From: Xestospongia bergquistia
Taxonomy: Eukaryota > Porifera > Demospongiae > Haplosclerida > Petrosiidae
Reading direction: 5' to 3'
NCBI GenBank assembly: GCA_963965975.1
Contig: OZ014412.1
Coordinates: 13,468,849 to 13,532,848, forward strand
DNA: 64,000 bases
Both the position numbers and the translations under genes were made by a program. Under the pieces are notes generated by a model that did not search any database, had not been told where the DNA came from, and saw nothing but the letters and a program-made list of their open reading frames with translations. This document shows, piece after piece, positions 22,312 through 47,124 of the stretch. The stretch's first letter is position 1; each line of letters opens with the position of its first letter.

Positions 22312-22479
22312 TGTGGTAACTTAAATAAACCTATGATGTAATGTTTATATAAATGTTCTGGAACTGTACTATATATTGTCATGTAAATTCAGTTTTGTTC
22401 AGTCTACAGTTGTTGAGTTATTGTTCTTTTAAATATATATGTTGTATTGGTAAGCTCGGTCACTAGTAGAATTACAACA
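22312..22479 (+). repeat. 5' LTR of gypsy copy 2
   Basis: TGTGGTAAC to ATTACAACA, 168 bp, differs from the 3' LTR by one T/C near the middle. Confidence 0.93.
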
Positions 22480-22504
22480 TATTTGGCGATGAGAGGTAAA
22501 AGAG

Positions 22505-26300: not shown

Positions 26301-26454
26301 AGATCGTGTGGAACAAACAGAGCCTACTCAATCAACACCTGAAAATCCAACACCAGTAGTGCGTTCACCAGTTAGAAGATCAAATCGAAAACGAAAACCA
26401 CATGAAACATTTGCTCCATTCATTCGAAACTTAAAAAACTTAAAAAGGGGGAAA
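23300..26454 (+). pseudogene. pol of gypsy copy 2, broken
   Basis: The protease site reads LELDMGASVSVIS (DMG in place of DTG). Reverse transcriptase begins in frame but stops at 23876-23878 (after GVISPV), shifts near 24100, and its active site reads YINN in place of YIDD. RNase H keeps FCDASQYG and YSDHQPL; the shared stop is at 24998-25000. Integrase pieces ([35 protein letters not shown]) lie in different frames. Several independent lesions make it inactive. Confidence 0.88.
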
Positions 26455-26622
26455 TGTGGTAACTTAAATAAACCTATGATGTAATGTTTATATAAATGTT
26501 CTGGAACTGCACTATATATTGTCATGTAAATTCAGTTTTGTTCAGTCTACAGTTGTTGAGTTATTGTTCTTTTAAATATATATGTTGTATTGGTAAGCTC
26601 GGTCACTAGTAGAATTACAACA
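26455..26622 (+). repeat. 3' LTR of gypsy copy 2
   Basis: 168 bp, nearly identical to the 5' LTR; followed by the TAGTT duplication. Confidence 0.93.
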
Positions 26623-26790
26623 TAGTTACCTTGTATGATTGGTATTATAATATCAGAAAGGCTCTATTTTGCATTTTCCTTTTGAAATTATTTCCCAAAA
26701 TGTAACATCCCAAAAATCTGGAAGAAACGATTTCAAGAAAACACTTTTCGGAAAAATAGAATGTTACAAACATTATGCTGACCATTAACA
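26623..26790 (-). pseudogene. piggyBac-type transposase, N-proximal fragment beyond the gypsy insertion
   Basis: Removing the gypsy copy and one TAGTT joins IIPIIQGNY directly to NPDRQIAVDES in frame, showing this is the other side of the broken gene. Upstream the translation reads YFSEKCFLEI and RFLGCYILGNN, then decays at the edge of repeat R. Confidence 0.75.
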
Positions 26791-26794
26791 TGAG

Positions 26795-27260
26795 GAATCA
26801 GTTATTATCACAACAGAGATGCCAGTATAGTTATATAAAAATGTTAGGATTAATACAACCAACAGTTTGTAAAGATTTACTCATATAAAATGTTGTAAGA
26901 AGTGACTAACAATCAGAAGAATCTAATATACCAGTCTAATTATTCTCTCAATGTAAATGTCAGAGCATATTTCTACAAGTAATTAACAGTATCCTGGTAT
27001 ATTCACTATGTTAATACTTAGAATGTCAAACCATTTAACTTATATCATGGAATAAACATAGTGATGACATTGACTATAATTATAGTTAGTGTTACTGTTA
27101 TAGTAAATACAGATATGTTGTTTATATTGTGTGGTATGTTAGCTTTTGAAAGGTGGAAATAATTTCACATCATATATGTTATTAGCAAATATAAAATACA
27201 ATTCATATGTTGTAGTAGTAGGTAGTAGTTGTATTTACATAAACAATCACATTTTTTCTT
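26795..27260. repeat. Intronic repeat unit R, copy 3
   Basis: Starts AGGAATCAGTTATTATCAC; very close to copy 5 at 43452-43920. Confidence 0.65.
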
Positions 27261-27434
27261 CTTATTTAATTTTGTATTTTTGTTTGTGTATTTATTTTAG
27301 GAGTGACTATGTAACAACTTATAGATAATTAAATCACAAATAACTACATAATTACATGTATTAATAACAACATTATATACAAAATACAGTCATGTATAGT
27401 AATGACAACTTGTTCAATTAATGGAGATACTTAC

Positions 27435-27533
27435 TGTGTTAATGGCATCCAGTGATGCACCAGCTTTAATTAGTGTATGAGCTGTCTCAGAATAGCCCCA
27501 GTAAGCAGCATAGTGAAGAGGTGTACGATTGTT
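27435..27533 (-). CDS. Ankyrin repeat exon, 99 bases, unit 1
   Basis: One full repeat (NNRTPLHYAAYWGYSETAHT, LIKAGASLDAINT), phase 0 on both sides, acceptor TTTATGTAG, donor GTAAGT. Its size and phase equal those of 13649-13747 and 14675-14773, so it could be an upstream exon of the Roc-COR gene across a 12.7-kb intron, or part of a separate decayed gene. Its partner is 44092-44190. Confidence 0.75.
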
Positions 27534-27925
27534 CTACATAAAGGAGAGTTCAGTATTTATGATCAATTCACTTTATAATATACAGCTACATCTAATGATA
27601 CATTATAAAGGATAGGTAAAATAATTCAATATCTTTTCACTAATGTGTATAGAGAGGTTAATACTTTATGTGATGTCAGCAGTAGTATTCATAATAACTA
27701 GATAGGTTTACAATATAGTCTTATAATATAATACATGACAGTAATTAAGTCATTTGTTAAATACATGCTCTATAGAACTTATATTATTAATTAACAAGTT
27801 ATAACTAGTATATATCATTATTATACAACAGTTGTAAAATAGCTAAACATGATATTAACATAATAACATTAAGTGTACACAATATCAGATTTGAAATGGA
27901 AACAAAATATTAAAATTATCAACAT

Positions 27926-28275
27926 CCCTTAGAGGACGACGCCATTTTAAAATATTTCACTTAAAAACATTAAGATTAAGGTGAAAACAGAGAATAGGAA
28001 TATGCTGATGAAACAACCAGCGCATTATGCTTCAATTTCTGTTCTCTTAATGGCAAATTGCTTAGACTATCAACCACTATGGTATGTTTGTTCTAGAGAC
28101 CATTACCATTGGACACTTGAACACACATGATGTCCTTAACAAATTAACAAATAAACAGCAAAACTTATAAGAACAGGTAAATGAGAAACATTTTTAATTA
28201 GCATTCCACGTGTCACAAAATTAGTTTTAATGAAGGTGGGCGTATCACGAATTTGTGATAGTGGTCCTCTAAGGG
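27926..28275. mobile_element. 350-bp inverted-repeat element, piggyBac-related, unit 1
   Basis: The termini CCCTTAGAGGAC and GTCCTCTAAGGG are perfect 12-bp inverted repeats. Internal blocks (ATGGTATGTTTGTT, ACCATTACCATTGGACACTTGAA-like) resemble the 3' flank of the piggyBac gene at 20946-21200, so it looks like an internally deleted relative. The target duplication is unclear (AT on both sides). An identical-length copy lies at 44639-44988. Confidence 0.75.
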
Positions 28276-28561
28276 ATATATATCAGGTAACCTATACTAT
28301 CCAATAATGAGAGCATTGACATCATTCTACTGTATTGATTGTATTGTAAAATGAGTTTACTGCACATATTAACATATTAACATTACGTAATAAATAACTT
28401 GTAATGTTTTAATTTTATGTAACAAAGACTAGAAACTAAATATCAAAGCTAGGACAATTCCAACATACTACTAAGCTATAGGATGAGTAATCTCTACTGG
28501 AAGCTTATGAGGATAATACACAAATAAACCACAATTTATAGTCTTTGACAAAAAAGAAACA

Positions 28562-29110
28562 CAGTGGCTATAGATCTAGCAGCCGGATGCAATAACTATA
28601 GTTATTAATCCGGAAATTATTAATTAATAACTAACGATTATTAAACACTAATAAAAATGGCGACAAAGCAGGTGCTGTCACGTTGGAAAGTTCCACAGAC
28701 CTTCCTTTGAACGACACTTCGATAGATCTTGTGTGCTTTACCGTTGGAGAAAGGTTCTCCTCGTATCACCATTTGAAAGAGAAAGTTACAGCATACGAGA
28801 AGGCGAAATCAATTCAATTGAGTCACAGTGACTCAAAGACACTTCAGGCTGCTAGTAAAAGAATTCCACTTAAGGCTGCAATAGCTAATCAAGACTTAGT
28901 TTACTACTACATCAATCTTTCCTGTGTGTTTGGTGGTAAAACTATCAGGATAAAGGAAAAGAGACCTAATCAGAGGTCAGTACTGATACGTTTGTGTAGT
29001 TTGTATAGTTAAGTCTAAACTTCACAATGTTTTTTATAGTACTATTAAGCAAGAATGTAAGGTGATGATCAAACTATCTCTAAGTGATAACGGGCAGCAT
29101 TTGGTTGTCA
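28562..29110 (+). pseudogene. Mutator-like element, truncated: inverted repeat and N-terminal coding part, unit 1
   Basis: Begins with CAGTGGCTATAGATCTAGC, as at 45275, and then a frame reading DLPLNDTSIDLVCFTVGERF, YHHLKEKVTAYEKAKS and YYYINLSCVFGG, up to the end of duplication unit 1. There is a possible ATG at 28656 in a different frame, so a small frameshift separates it. See 45275-47124. Confidence 0.7.
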
Positions 29111-29234
29111 AGATTCAATTCTTTCAAATTTTGAAGTTTGAATCGAAGTTATGAAAAAGTATTTTTTGACAATTTTTATCTTAGGATGACGTATTGCAAG
29201 CAGATGTTTATCCTAACATAAAATATTGCAAAGC
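29111..29234. other. Junction between the two duplicated units
   Basis: About 124 bases without a match in unit 1 or 2. No long homology to the breakpoints was seen. Confidence 0.5.
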
Positions 29235-29765
29235 ATTTTGAATTCTAGAACAAAATATGGCACCATAAATATTTTGTCCTAGGATAAATTTTGTGCTGTT
29301 ATTTTGTTATTTTGTGCTTTTATGTTACTTTGTTCAGTTGTTTGTTTTATAGTCTTTGAAAAGAAAGAAAAAGTTTGTACAAGGGTTAGAGCCTCTGTGA
29401 TCACCAAATTAGGTTGTGAACTAAAGGCAGAGTTAATCAAATGTGACTTTGTTGTTTGTTAATTGTAAATTGAAACAATCAACAGTCATGATCAATTGTC
29501 AGTCATTTTACAATATTACTGATAATTGTCATTGACACAGTTATAACTAAGGAAGTTACAAAAACACACAAAGATCTGTTACTTGAATTTTGAATTTGTT
29601 ATAAACATCATTTATGTTTTGTGACTTCATGTGTTCCTACATGTGTTAATTCATCATATAATATAATGTTCTTAACATAAAATATATACTTAATATCAAA
29701 TATGTTCATAATATGAAATATGTTGTAATGTATCTTTAATAATAATCACACTGTAAGCAAATAAT

Positions 29766-30130
29766 GATGCCAATGACAACAGAGATGCCAGTATAAAGTT
29801 ATATAAAATGTTAGGATTAATAAAAGAAGTATTTTGTAAACATTCATATATATGTCATGTTGTAAGAAGTTACTAACAATCAGAAAAATTTATTATACAA
29901 GTCTAATTACGCTCTTAATGTAAATATCAAAGCATATTTCTACAAATAATTACAGTATCCTGGTATATTATTATGTTAATACTTCAAGTGTCAAACCATT
30001 TATATTATATCAGGGAATAAACATAGTGGTGACAATGACTATAATTATAGCTAGTATTATATAGGATTATAGTAGTACAAACAATATTATGTAATAAAAA
30101 TATAATTAGAGTCATTGTTAACTGATAAAT
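29766..30130. repeat. Intronic repeat unit R, copy 4
   Basis: ACAACAGAGATGCCAGTAT to AGTAGTACAAAC, more diverged than copies 3 and 5. Missing in unit 1 between CACACT and ATATTACAT. Confidence 0.6.
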
Positions 30131-30289
30131 TTTTTCATCAAAAATGTTAAGTCATCACTTTTATTTTAACTATTTTCATTTTAAGAATTACACTGATATA
30201 ATATGTTCAAATAAAAACATTACATGATAATAACTGAGGACATGTGCACAAAAGTCATAATATCTATGACTAGATATTACATATAATAA

Positions 30290-31213
30290 AAATCTATTTT
30301 ACTTTTACACTAAATCCTCAGTTATATATACAAATTTCAACTATTGGAAAGTGACTTTGCAAAGCCACACATAAAATAATAAACTATATATAGTAACTGC
30401 TTCTAATCTGCTGTCCATGTTGACTATAACTGTGTGTGAAAATGACATTGCTTGAACCACAATAAAAATAGTTGTTTTAATGATTCATTTCACTTATCTG
30501 AACAAATCAACTATCTGTACACTTATAAAGAATATCATAAACAAAAATTTTGGATAACTCAAGATGTACTGTACATAAATGGAGTGTCTAAAGTAATAAC
30601 ACTGACAAATAATAAGACCATATGTGACCAAAATACAAAGATGGTATGTAACACAAATAAACTTCAAGTGAGTGCTTGCACATAAATGGTTGCATTGTGG
30701 CCCACTTGAATACAAATCACTAAATTTAATATATGAGATGTTTAATATTTGGTCTTATGGTTACCAAATTCCATGACATCTTGTTCAAGATGAACATGTA
30801 GCAGTTGTTTTAATGCAAGCACTTGTTTGAAATTAGTTTGCACATAGGTACCATTTTCCTATTTTTAGTCACAAGTCTCAGTTGTATGTTTAATAATAAT
30901 GTATGAAATGTTCATTCATTTTATACATGAAGTTTGGCATATGTAATGATAGTACCATACAATATATCTGGTTGTGCAATGCTATGTTAATGATTTTGGA
31001 AATGATATATTCTATAACTTATTGTAGTTAATTGCTATTAATACATTACCATAATGAATGATATGAACTGGAGTTTGAAGAAAACTTCTTACGTAAACTT
31101 ATTCAAGTCACTAACAATAAAAATTCTATTACCAAAATTTTTCAAAGTAAAATAACAGCATAATTAGTATTTCAAGTAATAAACCATATCCTCGTATATT
31201 AATTTTGTTTAGT
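30290..31213. other. Duplicated intronic stretch, no supported gene
   Basis: Counterpart of 17340-18258. Only the same pair of facing short open frames is present. Confidence 0.5.
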
Positions 31214-31996
31214 GCACCCACGAATGTACTTCCAAAATTGTCATGGTGACGTAACTTTCGTTTCTACAGCATATCCTTAAGATTTTTGCACTAAATGATA
31301 GCACGTGATGAGCTCTGTAAATATAATATTTAAATATTGCCTGATGATGTTTTGTATTTGCCAACCTAATTTTGTGCATATTGTAAAATTTTACACGATT
31401 ATGACATCATAAATTAATTTCCTTCACCTCTTCCTGGAGTTCACATGATCAACTTCTTTGAGTCTATCTTTCTATCTCTTTATCGATGTCATCAAAGTCG
31501 AAGACACAAAGGCAACGCGAGGAATCATTAGTACTAGCAAGAGAAAGTAAAATGAATGTTGTTCTAGTCAGGAGGAGTCAATAATGGAGGGTCAGTTTAG
31601 TGGAACGACCGACGAGGTAAGAACTGAACCTGAAGGACTTGCTGAATTGTTGGTGATGTCTGGTGATGCCTTAGACATGGAGGATGAAGACGTCGACCCA
31701 TCATTTGATTTAGGCTCAAGTTTGAAGTCTGATAAGAGATCATATGATCGACAACTTTTGTGACAAATGGGTCACTCATCTTAACCATGAAGATAGAGTT
31801 TCTCTTGGCCTCCTTCTTTGCTTTCAACTTAGACCTGTACTTAGAAAGGGTGTAACAGAATCAGCAGAGTTTTCTTCATAAAAACCAGCATTAGATTCAA
31901 TATCCCTCCAAAGAGTCCAGAAATATTTTGAAAGGTACACCATTACATGCTTACTTATCTTGAAGATATACCAAAAGGCTGAGACTTAGAGATGTT
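31214..31996 (+). pseudogene. N-terminal remnant of an unidentified transposon gene, unit 2 copy
   Basis: As 18259-19047, with the same fusion to gypsy RNase H; the acidic part reads SGDALDMEDEDVDPSFDLGS and has lost the stop of copy 1 (SSL in place of SS-stop). Confidence 0.45.
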
Positions 31997-33095
31997 AGGA
32001 AGAAAGTTCAAAATATATTCAGACCACCAGCCACTCAAATATTTATTCAGTGAAACCTGTCCGATACCAGTGATGGCTGTATCGAGGATTCAACGTTGGT
32101 CACTACTCCTCAGTTCTTATGAATATGAGATTGAATATTGACCAGGATCCAAAGTAGCAAATGCTGATGCTCTCAGTAGACTCCCTTTACCAGAGACCCC
32201 ACCCGAGTCAAGTAAAGATGGATCGGTAGAACTACTCATTCATCAACTCTCAGAAAGTAATTGTCACTGCTAATCAAATAAAGAATTGGACAGAAAAGGA
32301 TCCAATCTTATCTCGAGTTCATCATTTTGTATTACACAGATGGCCAAACATTGTTGACAATGAAGATCTCAAGCCATACTTTAACTGTCGAGATGAACTC
32401 AGCATCGTCAAAGGGTGTGTCTTGTGGGGATCACGAGTAATCATACCTACACCTGCTCAGTCACTAGTGTTGAATCAACTACATGACACTCATCCTGGAG
32501 TCAGTCAAATGAAGAGTCTTAGTCGTTCATACGTCTGGTGACCAGATATAGACAGTGATATTGTGAAGAGAGTGAGAGGATGTAATATGTGTCAAATGAA
32601 TAGACCTTCTCCTAGTAAAGCTCATCTCCACCCATGGGAGTATCCCTCTAGACCTTGGGTGTGGATACACATTGACCATGCTGGTCCCTTCATGGGAAAA
32701 ATGTTTTTAGTGGTCATAGATTTTCAGAAGAGTCACAAACTACATTATTAACTCAAGAGGATTGGTCAATAATAGATACCACACGTCAAGGAAGACCTCA
32801 ACCTAATCAGGTAGAAGTTTCAGAAGCTCAAGAAAATCGTGTGGAACCAACAGAGCCTACCCAATCAACACCTGCGTTCACCAGTTACAAGATCAAGTCG
32901 AAAACAAAAACCGCCTGAAACATTTGCTCCACCCATTCGAACTTAAAAACTTAAAAAGAGGGAAAATGTGGTAACGTAAATAAACCTATGATGTAATGTT
33001 TATATATTGTCATGTAAATTCAGTTTTGTTCAGTCTACAGTTGTTGAGTTATATATGTTGTATTGGCAAGCTTGGTCACTAGTAGCATTACAACA
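31997..33095 (+). pseudogene. Gypsy family A, copy 3: 3' remnant with internal deletion
   Basis: Same start as copy 1. Shared stop at 32139-32141 and the same Trp-to-stop at 32539-32541. Near 32720 the integrase jumps from FLVVID straight to the C-terminal part, losing about 620 bases that copy 1 has, including the second Asp and the Glu of the active site. The LTR is 32967-33095, shortened to 129 bp by small deletions; TAGTT follows. Confidence 0.85.
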
Positions 33096-34604
33096 TAGTT
33101 ACCTTGTATGATTGGTATTATAATATCAAAAAAGGCTCTATTTTGCATTTTCCTTTTGAAATTATTTCCCAAAATGTAACATCCCAAAAATCTGGAAGAA
33201 ATGATTTCAAGAAAACACTTTTCGGACCACGCCTATTTAATTAACATAAAACCACAGGAATTATGTGAGAGCAAGTAAAAAATGGTTGTTTATTGAGGAA
33301 GAAGACAAGTATATATACGCTTGAATTTCACTCTTCTCAAGTAGATGAGTTGCTTTAGGCTGTCTACCAGAACGATGTGTTTGTTGTTCTGACCTATTAG
33401 ACCATTACTTTGGATACTTGAAAGCGCCTGCTGTCCATAGCAACGTGTAAAGGTTAGTAGTTTTGTACGTTCTTTTACTTATATAATGAAATGAATATGT
33501 GATAAATGAAGAACTATGATTGATGAGTATCTGTTAGGTGTGATATTTTCTAAAACACTCCTGTGGTCACAACGCTGGATTCTCTGGACAAGTCTGACAG
33601 ACAAACAATGTTAGGTCGTGTTCTTCACTTTTATCACTACAGACAACACAATCTCTCCTCTTTGTTCTCTTTTCCAAGTAATGAACACCCTTTGGATTCT
33701 TGGTAGCAGTAGCAGAGACTGATGGTGTGACAGAAAGTGATACTTCTCTCTCTTCAAGTAATGGTTCAACAAGACATTGAATAAAGATAAGACATTCTGT
33801 GTGTGTTACCTTTGTTAGTGTCTTGATATAATTATAATATATACATTCACAACAACCACTTCTAGCATTTAAAAGAATACTTTTTTCCACTATCTTATGG
33901 GCTTGTATAAAAAGAGTAATATGCCATTAACTGGTCAAGCTTGTCTCCAAGTATATAATAATTGTACTCATGTATGTCCAGTAGTTTCTCTTTTGTAGAA
34001 TCTGTTGACCTTATATTGATATAGAATATTAAACCATTATTGTACATATTATCATTATAATAATTACATAGAGTTACCATTGTCATTTTACCTGGGTTGT
34101 ATTTCTATCATCTTGTTATTGTATTTTGTTGAACACATTAGAATTGTTCTCTTATCTTGCCATGCTAAAGCCATCATATTACCACATATGTAGCTTTCAG
34201 TTGTACTCTTTGGTATTTTTTATTTTCTTTTGATTTCTACAGGCAATCCTCGTTTGTTTGATAAAACAGTACCTAATTCCCATTTGTTCCGATGTGTCAG
34301 GTAGAAGAGGACTAGTGTAAAATTGATCAGTGTAAAGATCATAGCCTTTGTCCCTGAGATGATCTGTCAAGGTTGTAACAAATTTGACTGTATATGATGC
34401 TTCAGGATTGTCAATTAGGTTAGTATCCATTCTGTAGTATAAATGTAAGTTGTGCATGTAACCAGTTTTACTATTGGACAGAACATAATATCCTTTTAGT
34501 CCCGATGGGTTCAGTTTTCCTTTCAAATACTGACGAAATGTTACTATTCCCTTGAATGAAATGACAGATTCATCTACAGCAATTTGTCTGTCTGGATTAT
34601 AGTT
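33096..34604 (-). pseudogene. piggyBac-type transposase, unit 2 copy (with short N-fragment at 33096-33226)
   Basis: Same as 20818-22311. The C-terminal frame is better kept: ATKNPKGVHYLEKRTKRRDC, CVVCSDKSEEHDL and CQTCPENPAL, then a TGA where Cys is expected, then PQECF, which completes the Cys-rich zinc-binding tail of this family. The middle frame 34526-34197 has TDQFYTSPLL. The TAGTT duplication is at 34600-34604. Confidence 0.82.
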
Positions 34605-34761
34605 TGCGGTAACTTAAATAACCCTACGATGTAATGTTTATATAAATGTTCTGGAACTGCACTATATATTGTCATGTAAATTCAGTTTTGTTCAGTTGTT
34701 GAGTTATTGTTCTTTTATATATGTTGTATTGGTAAGCTGGGTCACTAGTAGAATTACAACA
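34605..34761 (+). repeat. Left LTR of the tandem gypsy array
   Basis: 157 bp, TGCGGTAAC to ATTACAACA, with small deletions compared with the 168-bp form; more diverged than the other two. Confidence 0.88.
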
Positions 34762-34786
34762 TATTTGGCAACGAGAGGTAAAAGAG

Positions 34787-35970
34787 ATGGCAGCGCTTAT
34801 CAGTGGACTATTGGAACCATTCGACCTGTCAAAGTACAATGTTACAAGATATATACAACATTTCAAACTATTCATGAAGGCCAATGACATCCCAGAGGAA
34901 AGGAAGAAGTCAGTCTTTCTCACAGCCATTGGCTACGACTCATACGAAATTCTGGCAAACATTTTCGAGAAACTGGAGCAAGAGACTCTCGAGACACTCG
35001 AAGCTGAACTAGAGAAGCATTTCAACTCCAAGTCTTCAGTTATAGCAGAGCGGTACAAATTTGGTCGACACCAGAAAGAGTCAGAAAGTATACCAGATTT
35101 CGTTCCAGGCTTACGTAAGTTGGCAGCACACTGCAACGATGCCATCTAACGATGCCACTGAAGGCATCGTTAGATGAAACTCTTCGTGACAAATTCGTGT
35201 GTGGTCTACAGCACGAATATATCAGAAGTCGTCTACTTACAGAGGAAGATAATCTTATCTTTGATCGATCAGTTGAGATAGCTACAGGATTAGAAGGTGC
35301 CAAGAAGCAATGCAGCAAGAAACTAAGAAAGAAGAAGACCATCGCACTACAAGACGACATAATACATTCAACCCAAGGTCATCCACCATTGTATGTTTTT
35401 GTTGTGCAGGTCCGCACGTGGCGTGGGCATCCGGTTCATCAAAGAAAAATGCCCAATTGCGGCAACACTTTTCACATCTCTAAGGTGTGTCGGAGCCTTA
35501 CCACAAAGTCTCAGAAGTCTAAAGGAAGACCAGCAAAGGGCCTGGACTCTGTAAACAAGGAGGAATCATCACCTCTGGAAGAACTCACTCCAGAAGAATC
35601 TAATAATTTATTTATGATTTATTCTTTTTCCTCTAGGTCTGATCCAATCAAGCTAGCCATGGAAGTAAACGGTCACAAGTTAGACATTGAGTTGGACACA
35701 GGTGATTCAGTCTCCGTCATTAGTGAAGACACGTTCAATTCAGGGCTGTCCTCCTCAGTTCAGCTCCGCCCTAGTAATCCATCTCTCACTTCGTATTCAG
35801 GGCCCTTGTAAGAAGTGCTAGGAAATGCAAACGTCAAGGTTAAATACCAGACACAAACAGTCACACTTCCAATTTTTGTAATCAAGGGCAAAGGCGTGAG
35901 TTTGTTCGGTTGTAACTAGCTGAAGAGGATCAAACTGGACTGGCAGATTGTCAAAAGCTTTCGTATCAAC
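34787..35970 (+). pseudogene. gag and protease region of gypsy copy 4
   Basis: ATG 34787, MAALISGLLEPFDLSKYN, open to 35149; a second frame 35152-35811 carries the end of gag and the protease motif LDTGDSVSVIS. The first knuckle is gone and the second lacks Cys residues (PNCGNTFHISKVC). Confidence 0.82.
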
Positions 35971-35976
35971 TCACCA

Positions 35977-36999
35977 TTGGATGAAGTCATTGAGAAATAT
36001 TCTCGTCTTTTCAGATCCGAGCAAGGGAAGTTGAAGGGTATGGAAGCCAAAATCTGTGTCCCCAGCAATGCTCAACCTCGTTATTTTAAACCTCACCCAG
36101 TCCCCTACTCGTTACGTGACAAGGTAGATCGAGAACTAGAAAGTCTACTTAAAGCTGGAGTTATCTCACCAGTTCAATTTTCTGATTGGGCTACCTCAAT
36201 TGTACCAGTTGTCAAGTCAGATGGGAGTATACGTATTTGTGGAGATTATAAGGTGACAGTCTATGCAGTCTCCAAACTAGAAGAGTATCCTCTTCCCTGT
36301 GTGGAAGATCTATTTGCAGCCCTTTCTGGAGGAAAGGTATTCTCTAAACTAGACCTTTCTCATGCTTATCAACAAATTGTACTAGAAGAGGATTCCAAAA
36401 AGTTTACTATCATTAACACTCAGAAGGGTTTATTTCAGTTCGAACGACTTCCTTTTGGTATCTCTTCCGCCCCTGCCATTTTTCAACGAACAATAGAGAG
36501 TTTGTTGCAAGGGTTACCAGGGGTGGTTGCATATATTGATGACATTTTAGTAACCGGAAAAAGCCAACAGGAGCACCTTGAGAACCTGACAAGTGTACTG
36601 AATTGTTTAGAAGAGGCTGGAGTAACATTGAAGAGACACAAATGTACATTCGCTGCACCGTCAGTTGAATACATAGGTCACGTTATCGATCAAGAGGGTT
36701 TGCATCCATCAGAGGAGAAAGTCAGAGCAACTAAACAAGCCCCACGTCCTCCAAATGTGACAGAATTAAAGTCATTTTTAGGTTTGCTCAATTATTACTC
36801 TAAATTCTTGCCTCACTTATCTACTCTTTTGCTCCACTGTATCATTTACTTAGGAAAGATGGAAACTGGTCCAGTAAGAAGTTGCAAGAAGATGCATTTA
36901 ATAAAGCCAAGCAGTTGCTTCAATCATCCACACTCCTCATGCATTATGATTGTCAGAAGGAGATCATACTTTTGTGTGATGCTTCACAGAATGGCTTAG
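35977..36999 (+). pseudogene. Reverse transcriptase of gypsy copy 4, best-kept RT in the window
   Basis: 340 open codons from the end of protease into RNase H: YFKPHPVPYSLRDKVDRELE, FSKLDLSHAYQQIVL, LPFGISSAPAIFQRTIES, then the intact YIDD box (36532-36543) and the thumb/connection. A frameshift near 36840 ends it in the connection to RNase H. Reverse transcriptase copies the element RNA inside the particle. A stop, a shifted RNase H and a broken integrase mean the copy is not autonomous. Confidence 0.85.
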
Positions 37000-38463
37000 G
37001 AGCAGTTTTAGCTCATAAGATGGATGACGGATCAGAGAAACCAATTGCATTCATTTCTAGAACTCTCTTACCAGCTGAGAAGAAGAACTCGCAACTAGAA
37101 AAAGAAGGCCTAGCAATTTTTTTTCGCTGTGAAGAAACTACACCAATACTTATCAGGAAGAAAGTTCAAAATATATTCAGACCACCAACCAATCAAATAT
37201 TTATTCAGTGAAACCTGTCCGATACCAGTGATGGCTGTATCGAGGATTCAACGTTGGTCACTACTTCTCAGTTCTTATGAATATGAGATTGAATATTGAC
37301 CAGGATCCAAAGTAGCAAATGCTGATGCTCTCAGTAGACTCCCTTTACCAGAGACCACACCCGAGTCAAGTAAAGATGGATCGGTAGAACTACTCATTCA
37401 TCAACTCTCAGAAGTAATTGTCACTTCTAATCAAATAAAGAATTGGACAGAAAAGGATCCAATCTTATCTCTATTTTTTTTGTTTTGTATTATACAGATG
37501 GCCAAACATTGTTGACAATGAAGATCTCAAGCCATACCTTAACCGTCGAGATGAACTCAGCATCGTCAAACGGTGTGTCTTGTGGGGATCATGAATAATC
37601 ATACCTCCACCTGGTAAGTCACTGGTGTTGAATCAACTACATGATACTCATCTTGGAGTCAGTCAAACGAAGAGCCTTAGTCGTTCATATGTCTGGTGGC
37701 TAGATATAGACAGTGATATTATGAAGAGAGTGAGAGGATGTAATATGTGTCAAATGAATAAACCTTCTCCTAGTAAAGTTTCTCTCCACCCATGGGAGTA
37801 TCCCTCTAGACCTTGGGCGCGGATACACATTGACCATGCTGGTCCCTTCATGGGCAAATTGTTTTTTAGTGGTCAGAGACGCTCATTCCAAATGGATTGA
37901 TGTTGAAATAGTGAACTCTACTTCTGCCGTGAGCACCATTATTAAACTTTGTTAATTATTTGCTACACACGGCATACCAGAACAGTTGATGTCAGATAAC
38001 GGATCAGGTTTTCGAAGCGAGGACTTCAAGCAATTCACAACTCAGAATGGTATTAAACACATATTCACATCACCCTACCATCCCTCCTCCAATGGACTTG
38101 CTGAAAGGGCAGTTCAAACTTTCAAGAGTACAGTTGTTAAAATGGATGGTCCAATTGATGTACGTTTATCTAGATTTTTACTTCAGTATAGGGTAACATC
38201 CCAGACTACTACTGGACTTTCCCCGTCTCAACTCCTAATGGGGAGGAAGATAAGAACATCTTTAGATGCACTACATCCTATTATGTCAGAAGATGTCGAG
38301 AAGAAACAGGAGAAACTCATCTCTGGCAAGGAACCTCGAAAGTTTAAACTTTAAGTTTAAAGGAAGACCTCAACCTAATCAGGTAGAAGTTTCAGAAGCT
38401 CAAGAAGATCGTATGGAACCAACAGAGCCTACTCAATTAACACATGAAAATCGAACACCGTAG
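36882..38463 (+). pseudogene. RNase H and integrase of gypsy copy 4, broken
   Basis: RNase H frame 36882-37211 ([20 protein letters not shown]), shared stop 37297-37299, integrase pieces 37625-37900 (HDTHLGVSQT; CNMCQ; HIDHAGPFMGK) and 37986-38354 ([24 protein letters not shown]). A frameshift in the core lies near 37865. Confidence 0.82.
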
Positions 38464-38558
38464 TGCGTTCACCAGTTACAAGATCACGTCGAAAACAAAA
38501 ACCACCTGAAACATTTGCTCCACTCATTCGAACTTAAAAAACTTAAAAAGGGGGAAAA

Positions 38559-38726
38559 TGTGGTAACTTAAATAAACCTATGATGTAATGTTTATATAAA
38601 TGTTCTGGAACTGCACTATATATAGTCATGTAAATTCAGTTTTGTTCAGTCTACAGTTGTTGAGTTATTGTTCTTTTAAATATATATGTTGTATTGGTAA
38701 GCTTGGTCACTAGTAGAATTACAACA
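38559..38726 (+). repeat. Shared middle LTR of the tandem gypsy array
   Basis: 168 bp, preceded by a purine tract and followed by TATTTGGCGACGAGAGG, so it serves as 3' LTR of copy 4 and 5' LTR of copy 5. One base differs from the LTR at 43113. Confidence 0.92.
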
Positions 38727-38751
38727 TATTTGGCGACGAGAGGTAAAAGAG

Positions 38752-39541
38752 ATGGCAATGCTTATCAGTGGACTATTGGAACTGTTCGACCCGTCAAAAT
38801 ATATACAACATTTCGAACAATTCGTGAAGGCCAATGACATCCCAGAGGAGAGGAAGAAGTCAGTCTTTCTCACAGCCATTGGCTACGACTCATACGAAGT
38901 TCTGGCAAACTTTTTCAAAAAACCGGAGCAAGAGACTCTCAAGACACTCAAAGCTGAACTAGAGAAGCATTTCAACTCCAAGTCTTCGGTTATAGCAGAG
39001 CGGTACAAATTTGGTTGTCGACACCAGAAAGAGTCGGAAAGTATAGCAGATTTTGCTGCAGGCTTATGTAAGTTTGCAGCACGCTGCAACTTAAAGAAGG
39101 CATTGTTAGATGAAGCTCTTCGTAACAAATTCATGTGTGGTCTACAGCATGAATGTAGCAAAAGTCGTCTACTTACAGAGGAAGATAATCTTACCTTCAA
39201 TCGATCAGTCGAGATAGCTACAGGATTAGAAGGTGCCAAGAAGCATGCTCACTTAATGCAGCAAGAAATTAAGAAAGAAGAAGACAATACGATACATTCA
39301 ACCCAAGGTCATCCACTATTGTATGTTTTCATTGTTGAGGTCTGCACGCGGAGCAGGCGTGCTGGTTCATCAAAGAATAATGCCACAACTGCGGCAAGAC
39401 TGGCGACATGTTTAAGGTGTGTGAGAGCCCTACCACAAAGTCTCAGAAGTCTAAAGGAAGAGCAGCAAAGGGCCTGGACTCTGTAAACAAAGAGAAGTCA
39501 TCACCTCTGGAAGAACTCACTCCAGAAGAATCTAATAATTT
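38752..39541 (+). pseudogene. gag of gypsy copy 5
   Basis: ATG 38752, 244 open codons to 39486 (MAMLISGLLELFDPSKYIQ), but the frame leaves the knuckle region after QQEIKKEE, so the zinc knuckles are lost. The gag-pol junction is interrupted at 39541 by the 422-bp element. Confidence 0.82.
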
Positions 39542-39963
39542 GTGACCGGATATGCAAAAAGGGACCACTTGAGTCATTTCTGTCATTTTCACTTTTTCAT
39601 ACCATTTTAAAGTGTAGATAATTCTGAATTGTTTGATACCTTGGATAAATGCATGCGTTGCTCAAGACACGAGATATAAACGGAAATAGAGTGGCTACTA
39701 CCAAAAATTAATTTTGAGATAAGTGGAATTTAATTTTCCACCCCCGCATCCCGTACACTAATATTTGATAACGCGAACGCTTCTACGTGCAAAGCTAGAA
39801 AGAACTTTCGCTTTTTAGACGCTTCAAAATGACTGTCAGGAACTATTCTCTTCGTTTTTTGGTTTAACTCAAATTCTCAAAAAGATTGAAACCATCACTT
39901 TTTCTGTCCATACTGAAATTTTTGTTTTTGACAGAAGTGGTCCCTTTTCGCAAATCCGGTCAC
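39542..39963. mobile_element. 422-bp inverted-repeat element with 4-bp target duplication, copy 1
   Basis: Starts GTGACCGGATATGC and ends GCAAATCCGGTCAC; inverted repeats of about 29 bp with a few mismatches (AAAAGGGACCACTT shared inside). ATTT flanks it on both sides; removing the element and one ATTT restores the gypsy sequence seen at 23305 and 35605. Copy 2 (62399-62821) differs at about 8 positions, near 98% identity, so both moved recently. There is no coding capacity. The superfamily is open; 4-bp duplications occur in several. Confidence 0.92.
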
Positions 39964-39967
39964 ATTT

Positions 39968-42900
39968 ATTTATGATTTATTCTTTTTCCTCTAGGTCTGA
40001 TCCAATCAAGCTAGCCGTGGAAGTAAACGGTCACAAGTTAGACATGGAGTTTGACACAGGTGCTTCAGTCTCCGTCATTAGTGAATACATGTTCAATTCA
40101 GGGCTGTCCTCCTTAGTTCAGCTCCGCCCTAGTAATGCATCTCTCACTTCGTATTCAGGGCACTCGTTAGAAGTGCTTGGAAGTGCAAACAACAAGGTTA
40201 AATACCAGACACAAACAGTCACACTTTCAATTTTTGTAATCAAGGGCAAAGGCGTGAGTTTTTTCGGTCGTAACTGGCTGAAGAGGATCAAACTGGACTG
40301 GCAGATTATCAAAAGCTTTCATATCAACTCACCATTGGACGAAGTCATTGAGAAACATTCTTGTCTTTTCAGATCCGAGCTAGGGAAGTTGAAGGGTATG
40401 TAAGCCAAAATCTGTGTCCCCAGCAATGCTCAACCTCGTTATTTTAAACCTCACCCAGTCCCCTACTCGTTACGTGACAAGGTAGATCGAGAACTAGAAT
40501 GTCTACTCAAAGATGGAGTTATCTCACCAGTTTAAGTTTCTGATTGGGCTACCCCAATCGTACCAGTTGTCAAGTCAGATGGGAGTATACGTATTTGTGG
40601 ATATTATAAGGTGACATTCAATACAATCTCCAAACTAGAAGAGTATCCTCTTCCCCGAGTGGAAGATTTATTCGCAGCCCTTTCTGGAGGAAAGGTATTC
40701 TCTAAACTAGACCTTTCTCATCCTTATCAACAAATTGTACTAGAAGAGGATTCCAAAAAGTTTACTATCATTAACACTCAGAAGGGTTTATTTCAGTTCA
40801 AACGACTTCCTTTTGGTATCTCTTCCGCCCCTACCATTTTTCAATGAACAATTGAGAGTTTGTTGCAAGGGTTACCAGGAGTGGTTGCATATATTGATAA
40901 CATTTTTGTAACCGGAAAAAGCCAACAGGAGCACCTTGAGAACCTGACAAGTGTACTGAATTGTTTAGAAGAGGCTGGAGTAACATTGAAGAGACACAAA
41001 TGTACATTTGCTGCACCGTCAGTTGAATACCTAGGTCACGTTATCGATCAAGAGGGTTTGCATCCATCAGAGGAGAAAGTCAGAGCAATTAAACAAGCCC
41101 CACGTCCTCCAAATGTGACAGAATTAAAGTGATTTTTAGGTTTGCTCAATTATGAATTATTACTCTAAATTCTTGCCTCACTCATCTACTCTTTTGTCTT
41201 CACTGTATCATTTACTTAGGAAATATGGAAACTGGTCCTGTAAGAAGTTGCAAGAAGATGCATTTAATAACGCCAAGCAGTTGCTTCAATCATCCACACT
41301 CCTCATGCATTATGATTGTCAGGAAGGAGATCATACTTTCGTGTGATGCTTCACAGTATGGTTTAGGAGCAGTTTTAGCTCATAAGATGGATAATAGATC
41401 AGAGAAACCAATTACATTTTACTCTCTCACCAGCTGAGATGAAGTACACACAATTAAAAAAAGAAGACCTAGCAATTATTTTCGCTGTGAAGAAACTACA
41501 CCAATACTTATCAGGAAGAAAGTTCAAAATATATTCAGACCACCAACCACTCAAAAATGTATTCAGTAAAACCCGTCTGATACCAGTGATGGCTGCAACA
41601 AGGATTCAACGTTGGTCACTACTCCTCTGTTCTTATGAATATGAGATTGAATATTGACCAGGATCCAAAGTAGCAAATGCTGATGCTCTCAGTAGACTCC
41701 CTTTACCAGAGACCACACCTGAGTCAAGTAAAGATGGATCGGTAGAACTACTCATTCATCAACTCTCAGAAGTAATTGTCACTGCTAATCAAATAAAGAA
41801 TTGGACAAAAAAGGATCCAATCTTATCTCGAGTTCATTGTTTTGTGTTACACGAATGGCCAAACATTGTTGACAATGAAGATCTCAAGCCATACTTTAAC
41901 TGTTGAGATGAACTCGGCATCATCAAAGGGTGTGTCTTGTGGGGATCACGAGTAATCATACCTCCACCTGGTCAGTCACTGGTGTTGAATCAACTACATG
42001 ATACTCATCTTGGAGTCAGTCAAATGAAAAGCCTTAGTCGTTCATATGTCTGGTGGCCAGGTATTGACAGTGATATTGTGAAGAGAGTGAGATGATGTAA
42101 TATGTTTCAAATGAATAGACCTTCTCCTAGTAAAGCTTCTCTCCTCCCATGGGAGTATCCCTCTAGACCTTGGGCGCGGATACACATTGACCATGCTGGT
42201 CCCGTAATGGGCAAAATGTTTTTAGTGGTCATAGACGCTTATTCCAAATGGATTGATGTTGAAATACTGAACTCTACTTCTGCCGTGAGCACCATTATTA
42301 AACTTCGTTCATTATTTGCTACACACGGCATACCAGAATAGTTGGTGTCAGATAATGGTCAGGTTTTCGAAGCGAGGAATTCAAGCAATTCACAACTCAG
42401 AATGGTATTAAACACATATTCACATCACCTTACCATCCCTCCTCCAATGGACTTGCTGAAAGGGCAGTTCAAACTTTCAAGAGTACAGTTGTTAAAATGG
42501 ATGGTCCAATTAATGTACGTTTATCTAGATTTTTACTTCAGTATAGGGTAACACCCCAGACTACTACTGGACTTTCCCCGTCTCAACTCCTATTAGGGAG
42601 GAAGATAAGAACATGTTTAGATGCACTACATCCTGATATGTCAGAAGATGTCGAGAAGAAACAGGAGAAACTCATCTCTGGCAAGGAACCTCGAAAGTTT
42701 AAACTGGATGATCTGTTGTTTGCAAAAAAAAACATAGATTTATGTGGATACTGGTGAAGGTAACTAAAATAATGGACCTTTATCGTATGAAGTTACAACT
42801 GAAAGTGGCATGACTTTATGACGTCATGTTGACCATCTTCAAAGATTTTCAGAAAAGTCACAAACTACATTATCAACTCAAGAGGATTGGTCAATAATAG

Positions 42901-43112
42901 ATACCACACCTCAAGGAAGACCTCAACTTAATCAGGTAGAAGTTTCAGAAGCTGAAGAAGATCGTGTGGAACCAACAGAGCATACTCAATCAACACCTGA
43001 AAATCCAACACCAGTAGTGCATTCACAAGTTAGAAGATGAAGTCTAAAACGAAAACCGCCTGAAACATTTGCTCCACTCATTCGAACTTAAAAAAATTAA
43101 AAAGGGGGAAAA
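39968..43112 (+). pseudogene. pol of gypsy copy 5, broken
   Basis: Protease FDTGASVSVIS (39972-40403), then a stop (GKLKGM-stop). RT parts keep FSKLDLSHPYQQIVL and an active site YIDN in place of YIDD. RNase H has [18 protein letters not shown]; shared stop 41655-41657. Integrase pieces 42102-42341 and 42497-42757 are in separate frames. Several lesions; inactive. Confidence 0.85.
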
Positions 43113-43280
43113 TGTGGTAACTTAAATAAACCTATGATTTAATGTTTATATAAATGTTCTGGAACTGCACTATATATAGTCATGTAAATTCAGTTTTGTT
43201 CAGTCTACAGTTGTTGAGTTATTGTTCTTTTAAATATATATGTTGTATTGGTAAGCTTGGTCACTAGTAGAATTACAACA
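43113..43280 (+). repeat. Right LTR of the tandem gypsy array
   Basis: 168 bp; shares ATATATAGTC and AAGCTTGG with the middle LTR, which separates this pair from the LTRs of unit 1. Confidence 0.92.
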
Positions 43281-43448
43281 TAGTTACCTTGTATGATTGG
43301 TATTATAATATCAAAAAAGGCTCTATTTTGCATTTTCCTTTTGAAATTATTTCCCAAAATGTAACATCCCAAAAATCTGGAAGAAAAGATTTCAAGAAAA
43401 CACTTTTCGGAAAAATGGAATGTTACAAACATTATGCTGACCACTAGC
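43281..43448 (-). pseudogene. piggyBac-type N-proximal fragment, unit 2
   Basis: Continues the gene broken at 34604. The minus-strand frame reads FHFSEKCFLEIFSSRFLGC, ILGNNFKRKMQNRAFFD and IIIPIIQGNY with no stop between, better kept than the unit 1 copy. Confidence 0.75.
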
Positions 43449-43451
43449 ATG

Positions 43452-43920
43452 AGGAATGAGTTATTATCACAACAGAGATGCCAGTATAGTTATATGAAAA
43501 TGTTAGGATTAAGACGACCAATAGTTTGTAAAGATTTACTCATATATCATGTTGTAAGAAGTGACTAACAATCAGAAGAATCTAATATACCAGTCTAATT
43601 ATTCTCTCAATGTAAATGTCAGAGCATATTTCTACAAGTAATTAACAGTATCCAGGTATATTCACTATGTTAATACTTAGAATGTGAAACCATTTAACTT
43701 ATATCATGGAATAAACATAGTGATGACATTGACTATAATTATAGTTAGTGTTACTGTTATAGTAAATACAGACATGTTGTTTATATTGTGTGATATGTTA
43801 GCTTTTGAAAGGTGGAAATAATTTCACATTATATATGTTATTAGCAAATATAAAATACAATTCATATGTTGTAGTAGTAGGTAGTAGTTGTATTTACATA
43901 AACAATCACATTTTTTCTTC
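43452..43920. repeat. Intronic repeat unit R, copy 5
   Basis: Near-identical to copy 3 at 26795-27260. Confidence 0.65.
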
Positions 43921-44091
43921 TTATTTAATTTTGCATTTTATTTGTGTATTTATTTTAGGAGTGACAATGTAACAACTTATAGATAATTAAATCACAAATA
44001 ACTACATAATTACATGTATTAATAACAACATTATATACAAAATACAGTCATGTATAATAATGACAACTTGTTCAACAATTGAGATACTTAC

Positions 44092-44190
44092 TTTGTCAAT
44101 GGCATCCAATAATGCACCAGCTTTAATTAGTATATGAGCTATATCAGAATAGCCATTGTAAGCAGCAAAGTGAAGAGGAGTATCATTGTT
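44092..44190 (-). CDS. Ankyrin repeat exon, 99 bases, unit 2
   Basis: One full repeat (NNDTPLHFAAYNGYSDIAHI, LIKAGALLDAIDK), phase 0, acceptor TTTATGTAG, donor GTAAGT. It differs from 27435-27533 at 14 bases, changing 9 of 33 residues, while the flanking intron is nearly the same. It could be an upstream exon of the Roc-COR gene. Confidence 0.75.
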
Positions 44191-44638
44191 CTACATAAAG
44201 GAGATATCAGTATTTATGATCAATTCACTTTATAATATACAGCTACATCTAATGATACATTATAAAGGATAGGTAAAATAATTCATTATCTTTTCACTAA
44301 TGTGTATAGAGAGGTTAATACTTTATGTGATGTCAGCAGTAGTATTCATAATAACTAGATATTATCATATTTGGAGATTAAAGTGTTTGTCCTATTATGT
44401 CACATATCTTTATCTATAGGTTTACAATATAGTCTTATAATATAATACATGACAGTAATTAAATCATTTGTTAAATACATGCTCTACAGAACTTATATTA
44501 TTAATTAACAAGTTATAACTAGTATATATCATTATTACACAACAGTTGTAAAATAGCTAAACATGATATTAACATAATAACATTAAGTGTACACAATATC
44601 AGATTTGAAATGGAAACAAATATTAAAATTATCAACAT

Positions 44639-44988
44639 CCCTTAGAGGACGACGCCATTTTAAAATATTTCACTTAAAAACATTAAGATTAAGGTGAAAA
44701 CAGAGAATAGGAATTTGCTGATGAAACAACCAGCGCATTATGCTTCAATTTCTGTTCTCTTAATGGCAAATTACTTAGACTATCAACCACTATGGTATGT
44801 TTGTTCTAGAGACCATTACCATTGGACACTTGAACACACATGATGTCCTTAACAAATTAACAAATTAACAGCAAAACTTATAAGAACAGGTAAATAAGTA
44901 ACATTTTTAATTAGCATTCCACGTGTCACAAAATTAGTTTTAATGAAGGTGGGCGTATCACGAATTTGTGACAGTGGTCCTCTAAGGG
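44639..44988. mobile_element. 350-bp inverted-repeat element, piggyBac-related, unit 2
   Basis: Same ends and length as 27926-28275; copied with the segment, not by a new insertion, because the flanks match as well. Confidence 0.75.
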
Positions 44989-45274
44989 ATATATATCAGG
45001 TAACCTATACTATCCAATAATGAGAACATTGATATCATTCTATTGTATTGATTGTATTGTAAAATGAGTTTACTGCACATATTAACATATTAACATTACG
45101 TAATAAATAACTTGTAATGTCTTAATTTTATGCAACAAAGACTAGAAACTATATATCAAAGCTAGGACAATTCCAACATACTACTAAGCTATAGGATGAG
45201 TAATCTGAGCTGGAAGCTTATGAGGATAATACACAAATAAACCACAATTTATAGTCTTTGACAAAAAAGAAACG

Positions 45275-47124
45275 CAGTGTCTATAGATCTAGCAGCCGGA
45301 TGCAATAACTATAGTTATTAATCAGGAAATTATTAAGTAAGTAACTAACGATTATTAAACATTAATAAAAATGGCGACGAAGCAGGTGCTGTCACATTGG
45401 AGAGTTCCACAGACCTTCCTTTGAACGACACTTTGATAGACCTTGTGTGCTTTAACGTTAGAGAAAGGTTCACCTCGTATCACCATTTGAAAGAGAAAGT
45501 TACAGCATATGAGAATATGAAATCAATTCAATTGAGTCACAGTGACTCAAAGAGACTTCAGGCTGCCAGTAAAAAAATTTCACTTAAGACTGCAATAGCT
45601 AATCAAGACTTAGTTTACTACTACATCAATCTTTTCTGTGTGTTTGGTGGTAAAAACTATCAGGATAAAGGAAAGAGACCTAATCAGAGGTCAGTACTGA
45701 TACGTTTGTGTAGTTTGTATAGTTAGGTCTAAACTTCACAATGTTTTTATAGTACTATTAAGCAAGAATGTAAGGTGATGATCAAACTATCTCTAAGTGA
45801 TGACGGGCAGCATTTGGTTGTCACTGATGTTAATGAAAACCACACCCATAATGCTAGCAAAGTAAGAAGCAGTCATTACCTGATTATTACTATGATAACT
45901 TGATTAAATAGGAAATATATGATCATCTTCCTTGTCAGCGGATGCTTGACTGAAACCTGGAAGGAAGCAGAAAGTTTTTAAAAGATGAAAGTTAACAAGA
46001 AGTTGCTTCAACAATGTCTTAGTGTAATAGTGGCCATGGGGAAGGTTGTTACACTGAAAGACATTAGCAACATACAGACTGGACTAGTAAGTAAAGAGGA
46101 TGAAAATAATCTAGACGCTCTTGTTAAGAAGTTAAGAGATATGTCATGTATATTAATATCATTATTCACATGTACATGTATGTGAATTAAATGTTTTAGG
46201 TTCATTAATTGAAGTATTCACTGATGCTAGCAACACTTTTACAGGCTTATTGTTTCCAGACAGTATTATGAAGTCTGTCTTTTATTTGAATCCTGAGGTA
46301 ATTCTTGTTGATGCCACTTATAAACTGAACAATTTCAGAATGCCTCTGTACTTATTGATGTCCAAAAGTTTGAAAAAGAGGCTGACCTAAGGGCTCTGAT
46401 AAATCAATTATAGGATTGACAAAGAAGAGAAAGTGTCAAGCAAATAAACCAGTACCATTCTTGAGAAACACTCCTCAAGAGAGAGAGAAAGGTGTGTTTA
46501 TTTATCACTATGCTTTCTTTCACTCCCTACTCTTTATACAGTGATTCTATCTTGGTTTGTTGATGTCGAAGTAGCTAATAGTGCTATAGCAGGTGATAAG
46601 ATAATAGAAGAGAATGATATTGAAGATAGACCAGAAAAGATATCTGTCTCATGTTTGGACGAGAATATTTGTTTGGAAAGTTGTAGGAAGTATTGTAGTC
46701 AGGTCACTTGGTCAGCACTGATGAGTGTTGTGGACATCCTTTAGGAAAACCCCAATTGGTACTGTTAAAGATGCACTAATCCAATTCATGATGAAAGTCA
46801 AGCATCAGTTGTCTGTGATTGCTACCTTAATTGGTATCATTTTTCATGCTTGGATATGAAGAGCCAACCAAATTTAAGTTATGGTTTTGCAGGAAATAGT
46901 AAGATTGATTACTTGACTTGTATAAACTCAACTCTTAATGATGAGTGTTTGTTTTTATGATAATGATAATAATGAGACTAAAAGGAACAAAGTTAAAAAT
47001 AATTCTTTACTTTCTTTCATGCTTATTAATAATTATTATTTCATTATTAACTGCTGGAATAGCGCATGCACAGACAGACTTCCGGATTAATAGCTGTAAT
47101 TATGCTGCAGGACTAGAGCCACTG
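45275..47124 (+). pseudogene. Mutator-like (MULE) transposase element with inverted repeats, broken
   Basis: The left end CAGTGTCTATAGATCTAGC (45275) pairs with a diverged right end, GCTGCAGGACTAGAGCCACTG region ending 47124; both go on to a TATTAATC(C/A)GG block. Coding parts: DLPLNDTLIDLVCFNVRERF, DDGQHLVVTDVNENHTHNAS, a small intron with GTAAGAAG and an AAATAG end, EIYDHLPCQRMLD-stop, KKLLQQCLSVIVAMGKVVTL, then VFYLNPEVILVDATYKLNNF (first catalytic Asp of the MULE fold). After that the core is deleted and a C-terminal part follows with VVCDCYLNWYHFSCLDMKS, a zinc-binding tail. The order resembles ZSWIM3-type proteins derived from MULEs. Stops and deletion make it inactive. Confidence 0.78.

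Follow-up and report, generated by a model that had tools for sequence, protein, structure and literature searches.

The window examined here, a 64,000-nucleotide stretch of genomic DNA (C2:13468849-13532848), contains two hypervariable ankyrin exons of 99 bp, HV1 and HV2, which belong to an array of 19 in-frame copies across 1.64 Mb of C2. Diversifying selection on the contact residues of this exon, suggested earlier in a first-pass annotation of the window, was well supported by our sequence comparisons: the exon was more divergent than its flanks in 170 of 171 pairs of copies, amino-acid-changing differences outnumbered silent ones by 60 to 1 among the nearest pairs, a class of sites with omega well above 1 was obtained on three trees, and the variable codons coincided with predicted contact codons. 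The combined data are probably best read as ankyrin cassettes that are diversified and exchanged among intracellular ankyrin-ROCO recognition receptors, and the window gene appears to be one member of the array of such genes on C2. Within this reading an immune or non-self role is about an even call.

The HV1 and HV2 exons

The two exons and the duplicated segments that carry them are listed below.

44092..44190, minus strand: HV1, hypervariable ankyrin exon (NNDTPLHFAAYNGYSDIAHILIKAGALLDAIDK), 99 bp, phase 0-0, edges atgtag and gtaagtat; locus L010
27435..27533, minus strand: HV2, hypervariable ankyrin exon (NNRTPLHYAAYWGYSETAHTLIKAGASLDAINT), 99 bp, phase 0-0, edges atgtag and gtaagtat; locus L001
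23307..29110, no strand assigned: duplicated segment copy A, including part of a Ty3/gypsy-like element; 94.2% identical to 39964-45823 (254 mismatches in 5788 aligned positions)
39964..45823, no strand assigned: duplicated segment copy B, from the alignment to copy A
26772..28600, minus strand: intron flanks of the HV2 cassette; the part near the exon is common to the 19 array copies, and beyond about 250 bp downstream it is shared by roughly half of the pairs
43431..45350, minus strand: intron flanks of the HV1 cassette, from the alignment

Alignment of HV1 and HV2 gave the same 14 mismatches in 99 bases that had been counted earlier, 12 of them amino-acid-changing and 2 silent, with 9 residues changed. 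The differing codons were 3, 4, 8, 12, 16, 17, 20, 27, 28, 32, and 33, with silent changes at 4 and 28. The nearest flanks differed at 10 of 448 aligned bases, close to the earlier estimate of roughly a dozen in about 450, and the frame, the phase (0-0), and the splice edges around the 33 codons were alike in both exons. Over the remainder of the non-element part (26753-29110), 67 of 2254 positions differed (3.0%; exon versus this rest, Fisher p=3.8e-6). Caution is required with this pair, since 99-column windows from about 26348, inside the adjacent long terminal repeat (LTR)-type element, contained up to 15 differences, and mismatches were also present at 4 of the 39 aligned bases that border the exon within 20 bp. 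The ratio of 12:2 was compatible with the neutral ratio of about 76:23 (binomial p=0.33), and the pair alone was ruled out as proof of selection. Whether the excess exceeds chance was decided by the 19 genomic copies and not by the pair.

A genomic array of exon cassettes

The search covered 146 Mb of genome. At the DNA level, the exon together with its introns recurred 18 times at 13.25-14.89 Mb on C2 with 93-97% identity, HV1 included and one copy on the opposite strand, and related exons were also present on C1, C3, C6, and C9. All 19 array copies were 99 bp long and in frame, and 18 of the 19 exon sequences were distinct. The acceptor atgtag and the donor gtaag were present in every copy, the donor being extended as gtaagtat in 18 and as gtaagatt in L019. 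A pattern of the exon scaffold matched 25 sites in the genome, 23 on C2 and 2 on C9, and the reversed control matched none. Nineteen of these sites were analysed; the six left out, four on C2 (12.91-13.24 Mb) and two on C9, had introns only 74-78% like those of the array (the 12.95 Mb copy being without an intron figure), and lie at C2:12907975, 12949559, 13056609, and 13244641 and at C9:4001287 and 4312792.

Two gene copies on C2, at 13.638 and 13.941 Mb, were nearly identical and 304 kb apart, which reflects either recent duplication or assembly; their exons were identical, their flanks differed at 2 of 550 bases, and their Roc-COR frames were 99.8% identical.

Divergence of the exon and tests for selection

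When divergence was plotted in windows over the 19 copies, it peaked in the exon inside a cassette of low divergence. The thirds of the exon diverged by 0.176, 0.102, and 0.089. Flank divergence was about 1-3% over the nearest 400 bp upstream and 2-5% over the nearest 350 bp downstream, and farther upstream it climbed to 4-9%, at lower coverage. With flanks compared over 400 bp upstream and 160 bp downstream with free end gaps, mean flank divergence was 2.6% (maximum 4.6%) and mean exon divergence 12.3%; the only one of the 171 pairs in which the exon did not exceed the flank was a pair with identical exons.

For relaxed constraint, dying exons, or an assembly artefact, one can cite the stops in three downstream Roc-COR frames of the array and the near-identical copies at 13.638 and 13.941 Mb. 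Relaxed exons should match the intron rate and not exceed it several-fold, all 19 copies were in frame with intact splice edges, and the copies adjoin different effectors; we consider this explanation very improbable.

Nine disjoint nearest-flank pairs were then chosen, which avoids repeated counting of shared history. In these pairs the flanks differed at 68 of 4854 bases (1.4%) and the exon at 61 of 891 (6.8%), and 60 of the exon differences were in amino-acid-changing codons and one was silent, where neutrality predicts about 76:24 (p=1e-6). An alternative flank alignment gave 50 of 3231 for the flanks, 64 of 891 for the exon, and 61:3 for changing to silent differences (p=3e-5). Under this alternative, the hypervariable codons held 39 differences in 135 bases, a figure that is biased because the codons were picked after the variation had been seen, whereas the totals and the counts of changing and silent differences are unbiased. 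Codon models, implemented in a custom script and not in PAML, favored M2a over M1a with twice the log-likelihood difference at 63, 130, and 104 on three trees, the smallest value (63) coming from the exon tree, and assigned an omega2 of 12-32 to 21-24% of sites on the three trees. Between the window gene and its paralogue at 14.87 Mb, 7 of 1800 positions differed in Roc-COR, 1 of 99 in the third ankyrin exon, and 5 of 93 in the fourth, and the hypervariable exon differed at 8 of 99 (HV1) or 14 of 99 (HV2).

It is possible, if doubtful, that the exon variants are old and kept by balancing selection while conversion repeatedly homogenised the introns, so that the flanks are young. MHC exon 2 is an example in which old variants are kept while the surrounding introns are homogenised. 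Over all pairs the proportion of amino-acid-changing differences in the exon (pN) was 0.139 and that of silent differences (pS) 0.071; since this pS is above the flank mean of 0.026, some of the excess is silent or arises through multi-step codon paths, and some may be old variation. Many codon states are common to several copies, the cassette introns are alike across very different effectors, and the correlation between exon and flank distances (r=0.36, p=0.007 over all 19) was gone without the recent duplicates L014 and L017 (r=0.18, p=0.17), all of which fit old variants. Yet such variants should hold more silent differences than the single one against 60 in the nine nearest pairs.

Variable codons and the predicted binding surface

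In the 19 copies variation clustered at codons 1 (N, Y, G, F, D), 3 (R, N, D, E, A, T), 8 (Y, R, W, L, F, H), 11 (Y, G, F, M, A), and 12 (W, F, N, Y, K, D, I), followed by codons 16, 17, 32, and 33, while the scaffold codons 2, 5-7, 9, 13, 15, 21-24, and 26 showed no variation, silent changes included. At the variable codons, most changes affected the first or second codon position, and several bases were involved. Three joined exon translations matched 438 distinct PDB sequences in phmmer at E<=0.001, the best match being a designed ankyrin repeat protein (DARPin; E=1.7e-150), and the exon was identified in this way as a 33-residue TPLH ankyrin repeat.

The variable positions of DARPins are 45, 46, 48, 56, and 57 (PMC10484509). 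By alignment, codons 33, 1, 3, 11, and 12 have the spacing of these positions, and all five fall within the six most variable of the 33 codons (p=2.5e-5, with the cut chosen afterwards). The DARPin numbering is presumably anchored to TPLH in this alignment. For a background set of six positions, the enrichment was p=1.7e-4. The variable codons would thus correspond to concave contact positions of the ankyrin repeat, as placed by DARPin alignment and not by structure, in line with the earlier remark that the changes include loop and surface positions. Natural exons and engineered DARPin libraries share the same per-repeat spacing of variable positions (PMC10484509, PMC8683736).

Two further explanations bear on this pattern. 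Import of whole exons by conversion from a divergent donor array, with no selection on contact residues, would account for the 4 of 39 differing bases just outside HV1 and HV2, and related exons do exist on C1, C3, C6, and C9. A divergent donor should alter the scaffold, which was invariant in 19 copies at the codons given above, and the scaffold matches outside the array (two on C9, four on C2) had a single core sequence, so that import of this kind is improbable. Targeted hypermutation of the contact codons, by a system like the diversity-generating retroelements or by other editing, would suit the codon-sized multi-nucleotide changes at five codons next to about 1.5% flank divergence. These changes involved several bases rather than one and fell for the most part at codon positions 1 and 2, so such a mechanism is hardly to be expected here, although no search aimed at a template copy or a dedicated enzyme was made.

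Probable exchange of cassettes between genes

A Roc-COR partner, taken as the nearest downstream match at 9-54 kb, was assigned to 13 of the 19 cassettes; with 73 of 493 candidates scored, no partner was obtained for those at 13.255, 14.091, 14.284, 14.410, 14.500, and 14.764 Mb. The identity of these effectors ranged from 33% to 100%. In 61 of the 78 pairs it was below 0.5, and the cassette flanks of these pairs differed by a median of 2.6% (range 1.2-4.6%). Cassette introns about 97% identical thus stand upstream of Roc-COR sequences 33-49% identical, and cassette and effector distances were not significantly correlated (Mantel r=0.18, p=0.10; r=0.06, p=0.34 in a cruder run), so whole cassettes seem to have been moved or homogenised. 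For example, the genes at 13.418 and 14.682 Mb had flanks 1.5% apart, effectors 33% identical, and exons 14% apart. Exchange of whole cassettes between genes is supported by these comparisons. By contrast, a PHI-like test over the 19 copies gave no significant sign of recombination within the exon (p=0.20), and recombination inside the exon is unsupported. Of the import of variant exons by conversion, proposed earlier as an alternative to selection, the exchange of cassettes is therefore supported and conversion confined to the exon is not. The region of ankyrin exons 3 and 4 matched mainly three close paralogues, together with one partial match of 253 bases on C1.

The flanks of HV2 were nearer to those of four other cassettes (1.2-1.5%) than to those of HV1 (2.2%), and over 1.58 kb upstream of HV2 the closest sequence was the 14.28 Mb cassette (97%, versus 93% for HV1). 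HV2 may therefore derive from a different gene through unequal exchange and not from copying of its neighbour HV1.

Ty3/gypsy-like copies with RVT_1 and integrase core domains lie beside both window cassettes, at 19048-26752, 32718-38350, and 38360-43411. LTR-like repeated pieces of about 370-570 bp at these copies are a possible substrate for unequal exchange. A plus-strand frame at 28635-29009 and 45349-45723, which we take to resemble a ZSWIM3/FAR1-type transposon protein, sits in the cassette intron, and DNA that matches it is found next to all but one of the 19 array copies, the exception being 13.713 Mb.

The predicted ankyrin-ROCO gene

The other parts of the window gene are as follows.

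14675..14773, minus strand: third ankyrin exon, 99 bp, conserved; the 14.87 and 13.30 Mb paralogues each differ from it at 1 of 99 positions
13649..13741, minus strand: fourth ankyrin exon, with boundaries by tblastn match only
11345..13147, minus strand: Roc-COR GTPase open frame; Pfam COR-A E=1.1e-7 and Roc E=1e-4, both under the curated score
9797..10324, minus strand: Death-domain-like C-terminal open frame; weak Pfam Death match (E=0.009, 16.5 bits, cut-off 22.6)

Profile search placed four ankyrin exons on the minus strand, at 44190-44092, 27533-27435, 14773-14675, and 13741-13649. The simplest reading is that HV1 and HV2 are adjoining repeats within a single minus-strand gene about 59 kb long, with the apparent order of N-terminal capping (N-cap) ankyrin repeat, HV1, HV2, two ordinary ankyrin repeats, Roc-COR, and Death-like end. 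The compact relatives L062 and L063 start with an N-cap ankyrin exon, and a matching exon for the window gene was found at C2:13537689-13537781, 5 kb past the window. Since each repeat examined is a single 99-bp exon of phase 0 at both ends (the fourth ankyrin exon, bounded only by match, excepted), the reading frame stays intact when a repeat is added, removed, or exchanged. The product, called receptor-like in the first-pass annotation, is now predicted to be an ankyrin-ROCO protein, and its intracellular location is suggested by analogy.

The Roc and COR matches followed each other in order within one 600-aa frame. The Pfam scan of this central frame at E<=0.001 returned only COR-A and Roc, with no NACHT or NB-ARC, and no kinase domain turned up in Pfam scans of seven and five window frames. 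The genome contained at least 115 matches to the window Roc-COR protein (73 of 493 candidates scored) and at least 146 COR-A matches at E<=0.001, some of them under the Pfam cut-off (150 of 171 candidates scored). Dense COR-A clusters on C6, C10, C11, C12, and C15 indicate a very large ROCO expansion. The Roc-COR paralogues at 13.602, 13.906, and 13.990 Mb each carry one TGA and one TAA, either in a shared intron or as related pseudogenes. On C14, at 1.26 and 5.5 Mb, ankyrin genes were seen in very long uninterrupted frames of up to 2968 aa, unlike the genes with one repeat per exon.

Among the other sequences considered, 28600-29110 was rejected as a 5' exon; its plus-strand frame is element-like, with related DNA on C1, C3, C5, C11, C12, C13, and C14. 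Locus L061, upstream of the 14.89 Mb cassette, contained no ankyrin exon and mostly element-like frames. The minus-strand frame at 288-1064 carries Psq and Tc5-transposase-like helix-turn-helix domains and is a transposase relative.

Variation of the N-cap exon

Nine of the 16 N-cap matches, those on C2, were analysed. In the nine array genes the N-cap exon was in frame in every case, and its variation lay at corresponding sites and in the last loop, which differed in length. Divergence was 0.096 in the exon core, 0.035 in the upstream flank, and 0.12 in the downstream flank. These data give moderate support to contact-surface variation in the N-cap exon as well, less strong than in the hypervariable exon.

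A proposed explanation

We propose that unequal crossing-over and gene conversion between cassettes would spread and stack them, possibly with the aid of the repeated LTR-type elements nearby, while diversifying selection would favor new contact residues. The protein would act as an intracellular recognition receptor for a pathogen, a symbiont, or non-self, in which ligand binding at the ankyrin face would switch the Roc-COR GTPase and a death-type output.

Several observations weigh against this reading, in addition to the neutral ratio of the HV1/HV2 pair, the exon pS above the flank mean, and the PHI-like result, which leaves exon-level import unsupported. The flank and combined trees of the codon models relied on a poor alignment for L001, L002, and L019, and the M2a signal can be inflated by recombination. 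The six scaffold copies outside the array had one identical 33-base core with no variation. In the N-cap exon, pN was 0.099 and pS 0.083 (0.094 and 0.052 without L070), and the exon exceeded the flank in 24 of 36 pairs, with the downstream flank itself at 0.12. The gene model is based on order and strand only, the Death, Roc, and COR matches were all under the Pfam curated scores, and the array Roc-COR frames at 13.60, 13.91, and 13.99 Mb contain stops.

A broader claim, which in our judgment could hold or fail with equal ease, is that the array represents a modular, rapidly renewed animal receptor repertoire, in which about twenty genes with widely different GTPase effectors exchange a homogenised cassette whose binding face is hypervariable in the manner of DARPins. 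It may be just as true as not that recognition and response are recombined independently in this repertoire, analogous to brown-algal and fungal systems and of separate origin. If true, this would be a germline system that uncouples the variable binding face from the signalling part, a logic that matches reports in brown algae (LRR-ROCO, with leucine-rich repeats, LRR) and fungi (ANK-NLR, with ankyrin repeats, ANK). With the contact codons defined, ligand binding and allelic diversity become directly testable, and if the host is an early-branching animal, the array bears on flexible recognition in animals without adaptive immunity. The Death-like end and the general character of the sequence suggest that the host may be an animal, perhaps a sponge.

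Comparison with known systems

The domain order ANK-Roc-COR-Death is that of DAPK1-type proteins. The predicted gene would have the same order, although its Death match reached only 16.5 bits against 22.6, and DAPK1-type is a single gene, whereas here a large genome family was found, with no kinase in the window frames scanned. Among the best-ranked literature matches, no title dealt with hypervariable ankyrin-ROCO genes in animals.

Brown-algal LRR-ROCO proteins have been proposed as immune receptors (Teng et al. 2024, PMC11378527; Zambounis et al. 2012 as cited there). Each of their 72-bp exons encodes a single LRR, the exons are shuffled, and positively selected sites lie on the concave face (PMC11378527). 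The genes described here share the predicted ROCO effector, one repeat per symmetrical exon of constant phase, exon shuffling, and diversifying selection at concave positions, concave being assigned by DARPin alignment. The brown-algal LRR exons are of phase 2 and many stand in tandem per gene (PMC11378527), whereas the sensor exons found here were ankyrin, four in the window, of 99 bp and phase 0, and not a tandem of shuffling LRR exons. Also unlike the brown-algal genes, the window gene has two variable exons with a variable N-cap and a Death-like end, and similar introns are shared across the 1.64 Mb array. The four brown algae covered there have 31, 9, 22, and 47 ROCO genes (PMC11378527), compared with at least 146 COR-A matches here, although the counting methods differ.

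Fungal NLRs with ANK, TPR, or WD repeats show positive selection in ankyrin mostly at concave sites and signs of concerted evolution (Dyrka et al. 2014, PMC4986451). Conserved ankyrin repeats, possible concerted evolution, concave-surface selection, and varied effectors are common to the fungal ANK-NLRs and the present array, while the switch is NACHT or NB-ARC in fungi and Roc-COR here (PMC4986451). The present genes appear to combine ankyrin, ROCO, and exon modularity, and by analogy their closest known counterparts are the brown-algal LRR-ROCO and the fungal ANK-NLR receptors.

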